Notes under the pieces: model-generated
Seen by the model: the letters and a program-made list of their open reading frames with translations, nothing else
Told to the model about the DNA's origin: nothing
Database searches by the model: none
Position numbers and translations under genes: made by a program
Shown: positions 29,249 through 56,513 of the stretch, in pieces
Position numbering within the stretch: the first letter of the stretch is position 1
How the letters are laid out: the number at the start of each line of letters is the position of its first letter
Virus record (IMG/VR): IMGVR_UViG_3300032284_003381
Span: 1 to 61,131 of that record
DNA length: 61,131 bases
Reading direction: 5' to 3' (one strand)
Source of the DNA: a virus

Positions 29249-31666
29249 GTGGCAAATTATTTTCCGCCTTCATCAGTTTATCCTAAAAATTACGATAGCG
29301 ACTATTCGTTGTTTTTAGTTTTTAATACAGCAGAAACAATTACTACACAAGATAATTCGCCTTGGGCAGATGAAATAAGTATTCGACCTGTACCCCCTGA
29401 CAAAGATGAGATATGGGCTAGCAATGGTTTTGCAAATATAGAAGGAGAGTTATTTTATTATGATTCCGTAGAGTTAGATACAAATGGAAAAATAAACAAA
29501 CTTAAAAGATGCTCAAGAAATTTAGGCGGAACTCATACAAAACAAAATAACGCAGGTTCTGAAGTTCGTGGATATGTTGTAGCAGAACACCACAATCAAA
29601 TTGTTAATGCAATTTTAAATATTGAAAGCTTTGTTGGCGAAAATTTTTCTACAGATCAAAAAACGTTAGATTGGAGAATTAGACATTTACAGCAATTATC
29701 GACAATATTTGATGACTTCACTTGTCCAACAATAAATTTTAGCTATGAAACTATAAGTAACGATCCCGCAACCGGCATTGTGATTCAATATAGCATAGTT
29801 GTCGATGGCATTTTTACTAGTTTTAGATTAGATTTTGGAGATGGAGAGTTCACCACAACTTCTCTTGCAGGAACCCACCAATATTCTCCAAACGCCCTAA
29901 TTGATCCAATTGTTACAGTTTCAAATTCTAAATGCACAATAGTACAAAGTCCTATTGAAAGAAATGCAACTTCAGAACCAACAGCAGCACCGACTACAAG
30001 CACATTGCTGATAGAAGTTCCGACTATACCAAATTTCCCAACTTTCAATATACCAACAATATCAGAACCTTCAAACATTGTAACAATACCACCAATTGTT
30101 TTTCCATGTTTAGACATAGGACCAATTGGACCAATAAATATACCTTCAATAATTGTTGTTGAACCACCAATTAACATACCTTCTTTAATTACCTTTGGTC
30201 CAGTACCAAATTTTGCAACAAAAATTACTTTTAGTCCCTTGCCAACTTTACCAAGCAAAATTACTTTTGGACCAATACCAACGTTACCACAAACAATTAC
30301 TTTTGGACCATTACCAACTTTTCCGACAGAAATTAAATTTGGACCACTGCCGACATTACCAACAGAAATTAAGTTCGGTCCATTGCCGACATTTCCAACA
30401 GAAATTAAATTTGGTCCAATACCGATATTCCCAACACAAATTAATGTTGGACCATTACCAACATTCCCAACACAAATTAATGTTGGACCATTACCAACAT
30501 TCCCAACACAAATTAATGTTGGACCACTACCGAAATTCCCAACGGAAATTAAATTTGGACCACTACCAAAAATTCCAACGGAAATTAAATTTGGACCACT
30601 ACCAAAAATTCCAACGGAAATTAAATTTGGACCATTACCAAAAATTCCAACGGAAATTAAATTTGGACCATTACCAAATATTCCAACAGAGATTAAATTT
30701 GGACCATTGCCAAAGATTCCAACAGAGATTAAATTTGGACCATTGCCAAAGATTCCTAGTAAAATTACCTTTGGTCCAGTGAATATTCCTAGAACAATTA
30801 ATGTTGTAGATAACATACCACCAACAATTGCATTAGTTGGCGGTCCAAGCTCGATAACCCTTGTTGCTCCAGCAGCAATTCCATTGGTCAGTCCGGGACC
30901 AATCCCGTTGGTCGGACCAAGCTCGATCCAATTGGTTGGTGTTCCAAGTTCAATTAGTCTTCAATGTTGTAGTTCGATTGCGGTAACAGGCATACCGCCA
31001 TCAATTAGTGTAAATTGGGCACCCGTTCCCGTGCTAACTTGCGTTGTAACAGTGTCTTGCCCATCAAGCACACCTTCGGCATCGCCATTTGTTAGAAATT
31101 CCATTTTGGATGGAATTCCAGAATTTGACAACACAGTTGATATGCAAGTATCAGATTTAGGGATACCATCTGAGATTTTAGTTAAAATGCCAGAAATGTC
31201 TGACATTAAAATTATCCATGATATTCCAGCAATTATTCGAGTAGAAGCTCCAAAAATACCTGATATACAGATTATTGGACCTAAAACGCCTTTACCGCAA
31301 GAAATAAAAATTATTTCCGATAATATTCCAAGTACAATTGAACTTGTTTCTAAAGATTTACCAGAATCAATTAAATTAGATGTTTCAGATTTACCAAGAG
31401 CAATTAAATTAGATATTCCCGAAACTCTTCCTGATATCAAGATTGATGCCAGCGGTATTCCAGACAAAATCCAAGTTGTTGGAATTCCATCAGCTATTGA
31501 ATTATTTGGAGCACCAAGCGAAATTAAATTGGTTTTACCAGATAAGCCTGAAGTTGAATTGGTTTACAAAGGTGCTCCTATAGATGTGAAAATTAATTTA
31601 GATGTAAGTAGATTAACAGGAGAAGATAATGGACAATGCGTAGCTATTGTCCCTTGCAAAACTTGA
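29249..31666 (+). CDS. Repeat-built fibre protein 3 (PKD paralogue with 12-aa tandem repeats)
   Basis: 805 aa, GTG start. The N-terminal 120 residues match the two preceding genes (VAEHHNQIVNAILNIESFVG), then a short PKD-like FRLDFGDGEFTT. Residues about 240-510 form a Pro/Ile-rich region containing sixteen consecutive 12-residue units of the kind FGPLPTFPTEIK (30194-30769). The C-terminal 290 residues keep a degenerate version of the same Pro-x-x-Ile-x-Leu/Val beat. It probably forms an extended rod; the fold is not one I recognise. Antisense and frame-shifted shadow frames stay open because of the repeats. Confidence 0.75.
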   Translation: MANYFPPSSVYPKNYDSDYSLFLVFNTAETITTQDNSPWADEISIRPVPPDKDEIWASNGFANIEGELFYYDSVELDTNGKINKLKRCSRNLGGTHTKQNNAGSEVRGYVVAEHHNQIVNAILNIESFVGENFSTDQKTLDWRIRHLQQLSTIFDDFTCPTINFSYETISNDPATGIVIQYSIVVDGIFTSFRLDFGDGEFTTTSLAGTHQYSPNALIDPIVTVSNSKCTIVQSPIERNATSEPTAAPTTSTLLIEVPTIPNFPTFNIPTISEPSNIVTIPPIVFPCLDIGPIGPINIPSIIVVEPPINIPSLITFGPVPNFATKITFSPLPTLPSKITFGPIPTLPQTITFGPLPTFPTEIKFGPLPTLPTEIKFGPLPTFPTEIKFGPIPIFPTQINVGPLPTFPTQINVGPLPTFPTQINVGPLPKFPTEIKFGPLPKIPTEIKFGPLPKIPTEIKFGPLPKIPTEIKFGPLPNIPTEIKFGPLPKIPTEIKFGPLPKIPSKITFGPVNIPRTINVVDNIPPTIALVGGPSSITLVAPAAIPLVSPGPIPLVGPSSIQLVGVPSSISLQCCSSIAVTGIPPSISVNWAPVPVLTCVVTVSCPSSTPSASPFVRNSILDGIPEFDNTVDMQVSDLGIPSEILVKMPEMSDIKIIHDIPAIIRVEAPKIPDIQIIGPKTPLPQEIKIISDNIPSTIELVSKDLPESIKLDVSDLPRAIKLDIPETLPDIKIDASGIPDKIQVVGIPSAIELFGAPSEIKLVLPDKPEVELVYKGAPIDVKINLDVSRLTGEDNGQCVAIVPCKT
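30194..30769 (+). repeat. Sixteen tandem 36-nt repeats (12-aa units)
   Basis: Exactly 36-nt period and about 576 bp in total. Each unit encodes [FV]GPxPx[FLI]PxxI[KNT]. Neighbouring units are nearly identical (for example the three FGPLPKIPTEIK units), showing recent unit duplication or gene conversion. The array is in frame inside the fibre 3 gene and not a CRISPR: there are no unique spacers. Confidence 0.93.
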
Positions 31667-36070: not shown

Positions 36071-36790
36071 ATGATAGGAATTTATGGAATCAAAAATAAA
36101 GTAAATGGAAAAATTTACATTGGACAAAGTGTGCAAATACGAAAAAGAAAAACTAGACATTTTTATGAGTTAAGACACGGAAAACATAGAAATCAACATT
36201 TACAAAAAAGCTTCGATCAATATGGAGAAAACAATTTCGAATTTATTACATTGCAATTATGTAAACAAGAAGAACTAAATGATTTAGAACAAAAGTTTAT
36301 TGATGAATATAAAAAAGTCACAGAGATTTATAACCTTGCAGAGTATGTCAATGATACAAAAGGATATAAAAATCCATTTTTTGGAAAAAAACATAAAGAT
36401 TCGTCAAAAGCAGAAATGAGTGCTTGGAAAAAAGAACATTATGTCGGAGAAAATAATCCTAATTATGGAAAGAAAAATTCTCCAGAAGTCAGAAAAAAAA
36501 TGAGTTTGGGGCGAGGCATACTTAAAGAAAATGATGTGATAAAAATTGTAGAAAGACTTAGAAACAACGAATCGCACGCATCAATTGCCGCTGATTATAA
36601 TATTTCTAGAACTGTTATAACAAGAATTTCAAATGGCACACGATGGGCTAATATCACAGGCGGTCCTGTTTTTCCTGTCGTTTATAATAATGGAAAAAGA
36701 GTCTTTCAAGAAACTCATAAAAATAAATTAGTGGAAGCTCGTTGGCACAAAAATAAAGATGAAAAAACAAATAATCAAGATTTGACGTAA
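36071..36790 (+). CDS. Free-standing GIY-YIG homing endonuclease with NUMOD3 and HTH modules
   Basis: 239 aa. IYGIKNKVNGKIYIGQSVQI at residues 4-23 is the GIY...YIG core; the conserved Arg and Glu follow (RKRKTRHF, EQKFIDEYK). Residues 117-155 show NUMOD3 motifs (NPFFGKKH, NPNYGKK). The C-terminus near residue 165-200 contains an HTH, VIKIVERLRNNESHASIA. It is not inside an intron or intein; it sits between a hypothetical gene and the actin-like ATPase gene. Such nucleases spread by cutting homologous loci. Weak start context. Confidence 0.9.
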   Translation: MIGIYGIKNKVNGKIYIGQSVQIRKRKTRHFYELRHGKHRNQHLQKSFDQYGENNFEFITLQLCKQEELNDLEQKFIDEYKKVTEIYNLAEYVNDTKGYKNPFFGKKHKDSSKAEMSAWKKEHYVGENNPNYGKKNSPEVRKKMSLGRGILKENDVIKIVERLRNNESHASIAADYNISRTVITRISNGTRWANITGGPVFPVVYNNGKRVFQETHKNKLVEARWHKNKDEKTNNQDLT

Positions 36791-47287: not shown

Positions 47288-47320
47288 TTTTTTATCCGCT
47301 TCCAAATGAAAGGGCAGATT

Positions 47321-47749
47321 TTGACAAAAATTGAATTGATAGATTTATTAAATAACGATTTAATGAACGAATATAAGCACATGCACTTTTACCTATATCA
47401 TGCAAGTGCAATTACTGGTTTGCATCGTGAAGAACTCAGAGAATTCTTGTTAAAAGAAGCTGCGAGTGAAATGAATCATGTAACAGAATTTTCTGACCTG
47501 ATTTTTGGTTTAGGAGGAACCCCTACAGTTTTGGGCAATAATTTTCTTAAATTGGAAAATGCAAAAGATATTTTTCAATATGCTCTGCAAATGGAAGAAG
47601 AGGTTGTTATCAACTATGTAACTAGAATAAATCAATCTAGTTCGTTAAACGATGTAGATGGAAAATGGTTAGAAATTTTCCTTGAAAAACAAATTGAACA
47701 TAGTCGAGAAGATGTTGATCATTACAGAAGAATTTTGACAGGATTATAA
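47321..47749 (+). CDS. Ferritin-like/bacterioferritin-type diiron protein
   Basis: 142 aa from the TTG at 47321 (AAAGGG site); ATG at 47306 gives 147 aa without a good site. A four-helix plan: NNDLMNEYKHMHFYLYHAS (Glu 17), EAASEMNH (Glu 50, His 53), GLGGTP turn, EEEVVINY (Glu 93/94), and EKQIEH (His 127). The position of the usual second Glu near 124 is Gln. Ferritins store iron and protect against oxidation. Its stop overlaps the next start (TAATG). A ferritin-like gene in a phage is uncommon. Confidence 0.82.
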   Translation: MTKIELIDLLNNDLMNEYKHMHFYLYHASAITGLHREELREFLLKEAASEMNHVTEFSDLIFGLGGTPTVLGNNFLKLENAKDIFQYALQMEEEVVINYVTRINQSSSLNDVDGKWLEIFLEKQIEHSREDVDHYRRILTGL

Positions 47750-47913
47750 TGGGCATTTATGCAATTTCTATAGCTGCAATTCTTTATCTAATAACTGCAT
47801 ATTCTTGTTTTAAGCAAGCAGATTATCCTCATTGTTCTATGTGGATTTTTTATGCTTTGGCAAATTGTTCGCTAATTTGGTGGGAAATGGTTAAAACTTC
47901 CAAAGGACAATAA
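47749..47913 (+). CDS. Small two-helix membrane protein
   Basis: 54 aa. The ATG overlaps the ferritin stop, with AGGATTATA upstream. Two hydrophobic segments (ISIAAILYLITAYSCF and MWIFYALANCSLIW) are joined by a short polar loop with Cys-His-Cys, and a short basic tail follows. A hairpin membrane protein coupled to the ferritin-like and CYTH genes. The following gene starts inside the adjacent few bases. Confidence 0.68.
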   Translation: MGIYAISIAAILYLITAYSCFKQADYPHCSMWIFYALANCSLIWWEMVKTSKGQ

Positions 47914-47914
47914 A

Positions 47915-48451
47915 ATTCCAACTGAAAATGAACGCAAATATATCATTGAATCTTGTTGTGAAGATCAAGCAAAAAAAGATGCAATTGAAGCATATGCAGT
48001 TTCTCAAGGTTATTTGACCACAAGTAGTAAAATTGCAACTAGAGTCAGAAAATTAGTCAATAAATCAAACAATTCTGAAAATTATGTGTTTACTTTAAAG
48101 GTAAGTACGAATGGTCGTTGTGTTGAAATTGAAAAAAATATTGACAAGAGAGATTTTGATGATTTATGGGCAATTGCGTTAAATAAGCTTGAAAAAATAA
48201 GATATGTTATTAGTCACGAAAAAATGAATTGGGAAATTGATTTTTTCAAAAATTGTAATGGTGAAACATATTTGGCAGTTGCAGAAATTGAATTGCCAGA
48301 GAACGGTACTAATGAACCCGAAAGTTTGCTTAATTTGGTAAAAGAAAATTTATTGTTCGAAGTACCATTGAATGACACTAGATTTTCCAATAAGTTATTG
48401 GGAGATGCCAGTTATGTGGTAAAAGTTTTAGAAGAAATTAAAAGAAAGTGA
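47915..48451 (+). CDS. CYTH-domain triphosphatase-like protein with apparent AUU start
   Basis: 178 aa if it begins at ATT 47915, with AAGGA seven bases upstream. That start gives MPTENERKYIIES, containing the ExExK motif (residues 4-8) that defines CYTH/triphosphate tunnel enzymes. It continues with ATRVRKL, then FTLKVS, CVEIEKNI, EKIRYVI and WEIDFF, the usual beta-strand order, and LAVAEIELPE. The only ATG/GTG/TTG in frame is TTG at 48014, which would remove the catalytic ExExK. No in-frame standard start lies upstream before a stop at 47873. Family members hydrolyse inorganic or organic triphosphates or cyclise ATP. A frameshift with the preceding gene is the alternative explanation. Confidence 0.75.
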   Translation: MPTENERKYIIESCCEDQAKKDAIEAYAVSQGYLTTSSKIATRVRKLVNKSNNSENYVFTLKVSTNGRCVEIEKNIDKRDFDDLWAIALNKLEKIRYVISHEKMNWEIDFFKNCNGETYLAVAEIELPENGTNEPESLLNLVKENLLFEVPLNDTRFSNKLLGDASYVVKVLEEIKRK

Positions 48452-48460
48452 GAGTGAATT

Positions 48461-48763
48461 TTGAAGTATGAAATTGTAGAAAATCTTCCTGTTGCACGTT
48501 TTTTTTATAAGGGATCGCACACGCATCCTGTTAGGCGTACTATTCTTGTGATCGAATCAAATCGTGATTTTATTCAAGGATATGAACTTCGAGAAGGAAC
48601 TACTGTAAGAACTGCCGAAAAGGCACCAGTTAAAACTTACCTTCGATCAAAAATTGCTAGAGGAATGAGTCTAAGAGCAAATAATCCAATAAGAAAGTCG
48701 TCCCCCAATAAAAGCACTTTGGTGAGACGACCCTTGATCGATATCATAAAAGTAGGTGCATGA
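48461..48763 (+). CDS. Conserved phage hypothetical protein
   Basis: 100 aa, TTG start at 48461 with GAGAGTGAA upstream. Begins MKYEIVENLPVARFFYKGSH, then THPVRRTILVIE and an Arg/Lys-rich C-terminus: a compact beta protein of a type seen in T4-like phages. It ends at an intrinsic terminator. Function unknown; probably nucleic-acid binding given the basic tail, by inference. Confidence 0.58.
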   Translation: MKYEIVENLPVARFFYKGSHTHPVRRTILVIESNRDFIQGYELREGTTVRTAEKAPVKTYLRSKIARGMSLRANNPIRKSSPNKSTLVRRPLIDIIKVGA

Positions 48764-50014: not shown

Positions 50015-52255
50015 TTAAACAGGAGTATTTTCGACGAGAATTCCTTTCCAATAGAATCGTCCTAAACATGTTGAGGCATCTGAAGCTGTCGTGACTTTTG
50101 CATTAATTTGAACTTGATGCCCATTGTGATTAATGTTGTTGTAAATCCATCTTTCGCCGGTGGATTTAACACTTGTTAATGTGTCTCCAAGGATTTGATC
50201 GTCATTTCCATAGAAGCCAAATCTTACAACAGGATACTGCGATCCATCACCTGTGCCATTATTCAATATAATGCCAACTTCATCACAATAGAACGTACAA
50301 TTATTTGGAATATTAGCATAGTATAGTGTTCCGGTGCTTCTAAAATTAACTTGTTTACTCATAATCACATTCTGTGTACCAGAGTAAAACAAGAATGCCT
50401 CATTAGCACTTTCACCACCGTCACCACGAATGACAATACCACCAGAAATATTAACCGTTCTATCTCGGCGAGCCACTGCGGCATAACCAAGAGCTACAGA
50501 GTAATCTGCAAATGCACTTGATTCACTACCAATTGCTAAGGCATCATATCCATCAGCATAGTTTTTGTGACCAATTGCGCTTGCTCTACTGACACTTGCT
50601 GTATTTCTGTAACCAATTGCAGAAGCACCCCAGTAACCAGAAGCATCGTTTTCATAACCAATTGCACTTGATCTATCGCCGCTTGCTGTATTGATCACAC
50701 CCAAGGCAGAAGATTTCTCGCCTGAAGCTATGTTGCCTTCACCAAATGCACTTGCACGCCAATCACCTGCATAGTTTTTGTGACCAAACGCAGATGATTT
50801 GCTTCCCGATGCTAGGTTTTTATAACCAATTGCAGAAGAACTCCAATAGCCATCAGCAGTGTTGTTGTAACCAACTGTTGTACTTCTATTTACGTAACCA
50901 TAATATGCTGGCAAACCGGAATAGTTGTAGGAACCGATTGATGTACAATTTTGACCATATATGTAGTTTTGATTACCAACTGCTGAAGAATAATCTCCAT
51001 AACAGCTATTGTTGTAACCAGTGGTAATTGAATAACTACCTGTAACAGAGTTGTTGCCGCCAATTGTTGAAGAATAATATCCATAAACACTATTGCTATA
51101 ACCAGCAGCAAGTGAATGGCTGCCTGCTACATCGTTCATGCTACCAACAGCAGTTGAATCAAATGTGTTATAAAGAGCATCGCCAACATTGTTTTTGTGT
51201 CCAAAAGCACTCGATCTAGACTGATAAACATTGTTTCTATAACCGAACGAAGAAGAACCCCAATAGCCGGAAGCTTCGTTTTCGTAACCAACAGCACTAG
51301 CCTTTATTCCGCTTGCAACGTTATTTGAACCAAATGCAGAAGCTTTGTAATTAGAAGCTGTATTGTCATTACCAAATGCCGAAGACTGTCTGTCGGAAGC
51401 ATAGTTTTTGTGTCCAAAAGCTGCTGCTTGACTGTATTCTGCACTATTTCTATAGCCGATTGCAGAAGAACTCCAATATCCACTTGCGTTATTTCTAAAT
51501 CCTACAGCAGTTGCTCTGTTGACAGGATTTCCATATCCGTCAGAAACATCTGAAGAATAATTTCCATTGGAAGTATTGTTGTATGCACCAACAGATGTGT
51601 TATACGCACCATTTGTATAGTTGCAATAACCCATTGCTGTTGAGGAATAGCTGTAATATGAATAAGATGCATCAACAGTGTTATCGTAACCAACAGCCGT
51701 TCCATTGTTTTGATAACATTTATTGAAGTATCCCATTGCTGTTCCATTGTTGGAATCTGCATCATTTCGATATCCGACAGCAACAGATGCCCACCCAGAA
51801 TAGTTGTAATAACCGACTGCCGTGCTGTAACTTCCGTTTGAGTAGTTATTAGTACCCACAGAGGTTCCACGGTATCCAGCAATGTTGTTATTACCAAGTA
51901 GAGTTGCATACTGTTCTGTGTATGATGTATTGTCATAACCAACAGCAACGCCTTGGTATCCAACATGATTGTTGTATCCAATTGCTGTTGCAAGATCAGA
52001 GCTTACATCGTTGGCAAATCCAATAATTGTTCCATAATTGCTACTTGTGGTACATCCATTTCCAACAATGATATTTGAAAGGGAGCTAAATGGATTGGTT
52101 CCATCATTAACTGAGGCATCTTTAAAAAGATATGTTACAAGTTGACCTAAATTAATTCTTACTGTATCTGTACCAACAGCATCTTCTGCTGGGAATTGAT
52201 ATGTTGAATCAATGTCTCCTTGGTTAATTACGTCTAATTGATAAATTCTCGTCAT
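50015..52255 (-). CDS. Tail fibre with YadA-like head repeats
   Basis: 746 aa. Residues 85-590 are built from about 14-residue repeats of the type SSAIGYxNxASG and TAVGYxNx, the left-handed beta-roll pattern of trimeric autotransporter heads (YadA). N-terminus (1-80) anchors it to the phage; the C-terminal 150 residues are a separate beta domain ending WKGILVENTPV. A trimeric adhesive fibre is expected. AAGGAG precedes the ATG, which overlaps the preceding gene stop (ATGA). The Asn-rich loops (YNN, NNN) are unusual for YadA. Confidence 0.83.
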   Translation of the reverse strand: MTRIYQLDVINQGDIDSTYQFPAEDAVGTDTVRINLGQLVTYLFKDASVNDGTNPFSSLSNIIVGNGCTTSSNYGTIIGFANDVSSDLATAIGYNNHVGYQGVAVGYDNTSYTEQYATLLGNNNIAGYRGTSVGTNNYSNGSYSTAVGYYNYSGWASVAVGYRNDADSNNGTAMGYFNKCYQNNGTAVGYDNTVDASYSYYSYSSTAMGYCNYTNGAYNTSVGAYNNTSNGNYSSDVSDGYGNPVNRATAVGFRNNASGYWSSSAIGYRNSAEYSQAAAFGHKNYASDRQSSAFGNDNTASNYKASAFGSNNVASGIKASAVGYENEASGYWGSSSFGYRNNVYQSRSSAFGHKNNVGDALYNTFDSTAVGSMNDVAGSHSLAAGYSNSVYGYYSSTIGGNNSVTGSYSITTGYNNSCYGDYSSAVGNQNYIYGQNCTSIGSYNYSGLPAYYGYVNRSTTVGYNNTADGYWSSSAIGYKNLASGSKSSAFGHKNYAGDWRASAFGEGNIASGEKSSALGVINTASGDRSSAIGYENDASGYWGASAIGYRNTASVSRASAIGHKNYADGYDALAIGSESSAFADYSVALGYAAVARRDRTVNISGGIVIRGDGGESANEAFLFYSGTQNVIMSKQVNFRSTGTLYYANIPNNCTFYCDEVGIILNNGTGDGSQYPVVRFGFYGNDDQILGDTLTSVKSTGERWIYNNINHNGHQVQINAKVTTASDASTCLGRFYWKGILVENTPV
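50440..52000 (-). repeat. Degenerate 42-nt-period repeat region encoding YadA-like units
   Basis: Roughly 14-codon units recur across most of the fibre gene, with GCTGTTGGTTAT-like cores. The units are diverged at the nucleotide level, unlike the 36-nt array at 30.2 kb, so this repeat is older. Confidence 0.7.
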
Positions 52256-56165: not shown

Positions 56166-56513
56166 GTGAGTATGAACAACAAATTTAACGCCTATAAAGA
56201 TCGTTATACAACCTTCTTTTCAGATGATTGGAATGACGATGATGATGAAGATGATGAAGATGACGACGATTGGGACGATGAATACGATGAAGATGATGAC
56301 GACGACGATGACGATGATGATTTAAAACAATGGTATAATAACAACGACGATGATGACGACGATGACGATGATGACGACGATGACGATGATGACGACGATG
56401 ACGATGATGACGACGATGATTGGGACGATGATGACGATTGGGACGACGAATTTGACGACGATGATGATGACGATGACGATGATTGGGACGACGATGAAGA
56501 TGAAGATGAATAA
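56166..56513 (+). CDS. Poly-aspartate protein
   Basis: 115 aa, GTG start with AAGGAGACATAAC upstream. After 20 ordinary residues (MSMNNKFNAYKDRYTTFF) the protein is about 80 percent Asp with scattered Trp, Tyr, Phe and Glu (WDD, WDDE, LKQWYNNN). It is extremely acidic and intrinsically disordered; possible roles (DNA mimic, cation binding, charge shield) are speculation. Codons alternate GAT/GAC. The strong ribosome site, its own promoter region and the terminator upstream argue it is a real gene. Confidence 0.7.
   Translation: MSMNNKFNAYKDRYTTFFSDDWNDDDDEDDEDDDDWDDEYDEDDDDDDDDDDLKQWYNNNDDDDDDDDDDDDDDDDDDDDDDDDDWDDDDDWDDEFDDDDDDDDDDWDDDEDEDE
56220..56510 (+). repeat. Low-complexity GAT/GAC tract
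   Basis: Almost continuous GAY codons with short TGG and TTT interruptions. Reads open in both strands (antisense poly-Ile/Val and His/Arg frames), so overlapping frames here are shadows. Confidence 0.9.

Follow-up and report, generated by a model that had tools for sequence, protein, structure and literature searches.

In the window, by which we mean the whole 61,131-nucleotide stretch of viral DNA analysed, a tight row of genes lies on the + strand. It opens with a gene for a ferritin-like protein (47306..47749; Pfam Ferritin PF00210, E=5e-15), the first of a small operon and also found upstream of CYTH in many relatives. Overlapping its stop codon in a TAATG, an ORF for a 54-residue, two-helix membrane protein runs from ATG 47749 to TAA 47911-47913 (47749..47913) and ends one base before an ATT (TAA-A-ATT). 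This ATT begins the CYTH frame (47915..48451), and a conserved gene of 100 codons follows at 48461..48763, with a TTG start (ATG in L001) and no significant Pfam match. Within the phage collection, the window is most closely related to LR756511 (L001), an uncultured phage of 595 kb, which carries a CYTH ortholog of 46% identity and has the terminase, CYTH and 100-residue genes in the same order as the window. For the membrane ORF, no homolog was found in any of the relatives' loci compared; the upstream neighbour of CYTH often varies among relatives, being a ferritin, a membrane ORF, an HNH or a ferredoxin-like gene.

What does the frame encode? Read from the ATT, it stays open to TGA 48449-48451 and specifies 178 residues, for which the AF2 model (pLDDT 92.3, pTM 0.87) adopts the eight-strand CYTH triphosphate-tunnel fold. 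Foldseek searches with this model returned NE1496, the plant TTM3 protein AtTTM3 and other CYTH proteins as top matches (E 2e-8 to 1e-6, at moderate TM-scores of 0.5–0.6), and the family profile matched the NE1496 triphosphatase structures 3typ and 2fbl (E about 1e-10 to 1e-9). The original prediction had called the product a CYTH triphosphatase; fold and distant profile bear this assignment out. Pfam CYTH is matched by 7 of 33 relatives (best 6e-7) and not by the window protein itself. The N-terminal ExExK is present as TENERK at residues 3-8, and both of its glutamates (E17 and E19 of the alignment) are invariant in six aligned phage proteins. With NE1496-type CYTH inorganic triphosphatases (PDB 3typ, 2fbl), the phage protein has in common the tunnel fold, the ExExK motif and other conserved charged residues, whereas its sequence is 25% identical to theirs and its triphosphatase activity is a prediction. 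We consider it very likely that 47915-48451 is an intact gene for a CYTH-fold predicted triphosphatase of a huge phage, with AUU as its start codon.

The frame leaves little choice of start. Downstream of an in-frame stop (TAA 47873-47875), a check of the sequence met no ATG, GTG or TTG before the TTG at 48014..48016 (residue 34), just as had been claimed. Counted from the ATT, the motif TENERKY occupies residues 3-9, so initiation at that TTG would lose it; according to the secondary structure of the model, residues 1-33, with strand 1 and helix 1, would be deleted. The proposed AUU codon (47915..47917) aligns with the ATG of orthologs and is preceded by a Shine-Dalgarno (SD) sequence, aaagga (47902..47907), at the seven-base distance originally described (spacer 47908-47914). 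The predicted anti-SD pairing of -5.3 kcal/mol is slightly above the median of related genomes in strength; the SD is only average.

Start codons of CYTH orthologs

If the ATT were the start, homologues should begin at the same residue, and most orthologs do have an ATG there. In LR756511, ATG is followed by PTENE at the aligned residue (ATGCCAACTGAAAAC, as compared with ATTCCAACTGAAAAT in the window), and the conserved protein of 51 distinct huge-phage orthologs starts at this point, in keeping with the proposal that the ATT places the N-terminus where the family begins. The codon aligned with the window ATT is ATG in 36 of these orthologs, ATT in 7, ATC in 1, GTG in 3, TTG in 3 and CTG in 1 (one partial ATT copy was left out, and ten rows were shifted by two codons after motif fallback). 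The relatives were gathered by scans with terminase and with CYTH alignments; the pattern of one scan extended to residue 1, which may have biased it towards M or I, whereas two other scans, one of them with a query lacking this residue, were free of the problem and likewise returned ATT and ATC. The AUU/AUC starts need at least seven changes on a maximum-likelihood tree—the same when only starred branches are counted—with gains and losses not separable, and all start codons together need 14. On these alignments, the start codon of the CYTH gene is unusually changeable, with AUG, AUU, AUC, GUG, UUG and CUG all occurring in orthologs.

Individual loci sharpen this picture. L057 has an ATC start with an in-frame stop two codons upstream (-6), and L091 has an ATT start in a frame that lacks any standard start over 128 codons. 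For L058 and L111, the AUU is less certain because of upstream in-frame ATGs, at -42 and -72, respectively; leaving these two out, six AUU/AUC orthologs remain, the window included. Two ATT forms recur in separate metagenome datasets (L089/L090/L108 and L111/L112), and the comparison of L089 (ATT) with L087 (ATG) gave dN 0.005 and dS 0.127, indicating purifying selection. The recurrence of ATT and ATC, the stop in L057, the open frame in L091 and the repeats in separate metagenomes together make it unlikely that sequencing errors generally account for these codons. For the window alone, which is a single metagenome record with no near relative in viral_contigs (single-protein scan), a G-to-T error or minor variant could have put a wrong T where the true codon is ATG. 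We regard this as highly improbable, given that seven other distinct orthologs, some of them repeated in separate datasets, have ATT or ATC at the same codon and that chance would have had to strike exactly this base. The rival raised with the original prediction, a one-base frameshift near 47893 (error or programmed slip) that would join membrane ORF and CYTH domain in one protein, can practically be dismissed: the two frames do overlap and the AAAA run does lie at 47893-47896 as described, yet no ortholog is fused, conservation begins at the ATT residue and the membrane ORF is absent from the relatives' loci compared. As judged from frame and orthologs, the AUU start of the window gene is very probably real.

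Is this a habit of the gene or of the genomes? We compared 1622 non-overlapping homologous ORFs, in pieces of 12 related phage records. In this survey, 7 of 11 records carry ATT or ATC at CYTH. Outside CYTH, the lack of a standard start was convincing for just two genes: in G004, that for a T4-type portal protein (ATC), and in G008, that for a glutamine amidotransferase (ATT). Since these were the only two in 12 genomes, the habit is concentrated in the CYTH gene, and genome-wide loose start use was rejected. Among 610 homology-aligned starts of the 12 records, those that follow an SD, use a non-standard codon and have no standard start close by were all ATT or ATC, and seven of the nine cases were CYTH (the portal ATC appears one codon out of register in this table). 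A Fisher test set AUU/AUC in 7 of 11 CYTH genes against about 2 of 395 other genes, counts that are approximate and come from genomes that are not independent.

An independent case of an ATT start is the amidotransferase gene (L127:5769-6908, in the 381-kb contig G008), which reads ATT TGT GGA, with a Cys codon right after the ATT. In class-II amidotransferases, the N-terminal cysteine is the nucleophile; as the enzyme needs this residue at its N-terminus, the start is fixed at ATT. The portal gene (L163:12372-14924, in the 390-kb contig G004) includes an intein domain and has an apparent AUC start. An HNH insertion was rejected as the cause of the latter, the endonuclease being on the other strand and separated from it by about 60 bases of shared upstream sequence. 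We also discarded the idea that these phages encode an initiator tRNA whose anticodon is altered: in G004, G008 and shorter contigs, ARAGORN gave tRNA-Met(CAT) only as possible initiators, and it found no tRNA genes in the window. In G004 (L153:10512-10586), ARAGORN also calls a tRNA that it labels tRNA-Pyl; the anticodon, CTA, is amber-reading.

Expected initiation at AUU and known precedents

In phages, AUU initiation has reportedly been described for T4 gene 26 (said to be the work of Nivinskas and others, 1992); there, in contrast to the window, the AUU start is internal and yields a second, shorter product. Established precedents in E. coli are infC and pcnB (PMC9410913), whose AUU starts, each with an SD, support weak, IF3-sensitive initiation, and the same would be expected for the phage gene. 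They differ from the present case in that here the gene encodes a phage enzyme, its start codon switches repeatedly between orthologs, and any feedback loop would be hypothetical. In S. aureus, the non-canonical starts of cvfC1 (AUU), ccpN and infC (both AUA) likewise have an SD and are conserved in relatives, akin to the phage gene (PMC13009471). In pncA of Borrelia burgdorferi, an AUU start brings back a catalytic residue at the N-terminus that annotation had overlooked, as it would here (PMC13398362). The S. aureus codons, however, are stably conserved, have an extended SD and were supported by ribosome profiling (PMC13009471), and the AUU of pncA was proved experimentally (PMC13398362), whereas the SD in the window is average and its start is read from the sequence.

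How might the phage gene be translated? A ribosome would bind the SD at 47902-47907; it could arrive there de novo or come from the preceding frame, having just terminated at UAA 47911-47913, one base before the AUU. Reinitiation after this stop is plausible from the one-base spacing. Then, fMet-tRNA would decode AUU with a third-position mismatch, and a 178-residue protein beginning with Met would be made, weakly and in an IF3-sensitive manner. IF3 discriminates against initiation codons without a final G (PMC4611024), and in S. aureus on poor medium, output from AUU (the cvfC1 case) or AUA is about 10% of that from AUG (PMC13009471), which is why weak synthesis is to be expected here. Translation from AUU, low output and reinitiation are all three what we infer for this gene. 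Predicted SD pairing is somewhat stronger in AUU/AUC than in AUG orthologs (median -7.7 versus -5.7 kcal/mol, p=0.048), in a sample that is small and made up of related sequences. No Rfam match to a structured RNA near the start was obtained in eight loci.

AUU starts as such were known already; what appears to be new is their recurrent switching in a phage family, and the literature searched contained no earlier report of it. For annotation, the consequence is that a gene caller that accepts no starts besides ATG, GTG and TTG would shorten the CYTH enzyme or overlook it. The repeated changes between AUG and AUU also provide natural pairs in which the cost or benefit of a weak start to the phage could be measured.

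Possible causes of the codon changes

Why has the codon changed so often? The likelihoods given below for relaxed constraint, a mobile element and a regulatory circuit refer to this question; none of the three readings competes with the AUU start itself. Relaxed constraint is a tentative explanation, to which we give somewhat less than an even chance: coupling to the upstream stop, together with an adequate SD, would make the start codon nearly neutral, and rearrangement upstream would let it drift. The frequent change of the gene upstream of CYTH is consistent with such drift, as is the stop one base from the ATT in both the window and L058. Drift should, however, affect other coupled genes too, and the survey found two others only; in L097, moreover, no ferritin gene adjoins CYTH on the upstream side.

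A putative mobile element is seen at some of the loci. In L090, a 234-codon frame for a putative HNH-type endonuclease (L090:3319-4023) lies between the ferritin and CYTH genes and ends 23 bases inside the latter; a second copy, 66% identical to it, sits on the CYTH start of L093 (L093:739-1395). By eye, the frame has C-x2-C pairs of the zinc-finger type and an HNH-like motif, CHYCDG..GLDRKNNEVGY..NVVPCC..CN; it has no significant Pfam match. Alleles with and without the insert can be compared at one site (L090 versus L087/L088, and L093 versus L092), the ATG sisters being without HNH. Along most of CYTH, hardly any differences separate L089/L090 (ATT) from L087/L088 (ATG), and upstream of the fourth CYTH codon the sequences of L089 and L087 diverge abruptly. 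In L093, the old CYTH start (ATGCCGACCGAAAACGAACGA) is kept upstream of the insert, now shortened by a stop, while the new start region, consisting of an SD and ATTCCCAC, is part of the 3′ end of the element, with native sequence resuming at GAAAACGAACG. Since the 3′ end of the element supplies SD and AUU in these two lineages, it explains two of the AUU starts, and the junctions suggest how a mobile gene could insert at a start codon and yet spare its target from silencing. A comparable arrangement is known from the free-standing HNH homing endonucleases (mobE) of T4 and Aeh1, where an endonuclease gene likewise lies in or beside a phage gene and overlaps it (PMC2988022); mobE splits the protein, whereas here the 3′ end of the element provides a new SD and AUU, and homing is putative.

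Could the element account for the start codon changes in general? The CYTH start would then be a homing site, the 3′ end of the HNH gene would have evolved so as to equip the gene it enters with a fresh ribosome site and an AUU, and the AUU/AUC starts elsewhere, including that of the window, would be traces left when an insert came and went, or when the site escaped cleavage. We think this unlikely as a general account, even though a scan for the element found it in four contigs of two lineages, in all four at the CYTH start and nowhere else. L098 has a decayed HNH C-terminal remnant at its CYTH start (L098:3928-4008), which fits past insertion there, yet the start codon of L098 is ATG; and no HNH trace was found in the window, L057, L058, L091, L097 or L111. 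An apparent HNH remnant within the membrane ORF of the window was rejected, its weak score stemming largely from the overlap with CYTH coding sequence. The HNH element does not explain the AUU start of the window. Elsewhere in the window, a GIY-YIG/NUMOD3 homing endonuclease gene (36071-36790) lies directly upstream of an apparent actin-like gene.

Selection for a regulatory circuit, in which AUU is kept so that IF3 of host or phage tunes CYTH synthesis in the manner of infC, seems quite improbable to us. The concentration of AUU/AUC in the CYTH gene would fit such a circuit, and huge phages have been reported to encode IF3 (PMC7162821). Yet phage IF3 does not track AUU: it is present with ATG in W01, G013, G035 and G037, with GTG in G036 and with ATT in G008, and absent from the 390-kb ATT contig G004. 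A circuit built on phage IF3 is therefore not supported by these contigs, which are mostly incomplete. IF3-like genes were seen in related huge phages at L121, L122, L123, L124, L291, L292 and L293, those of L121-L124 being full-length with an ATG available at the N-terminus.

Three further frames of the window deserve mention. Two large proteins, at 29249-31666 and 50015-52255, contain many short repeats (FGPLPTFPTEIK-like and GYxNxxxGxxSxAxGY-like) and may be fibres or adhesins, and an ORF at 56166-56513 consists mostly of aspartate codons with scattered tryptophans.
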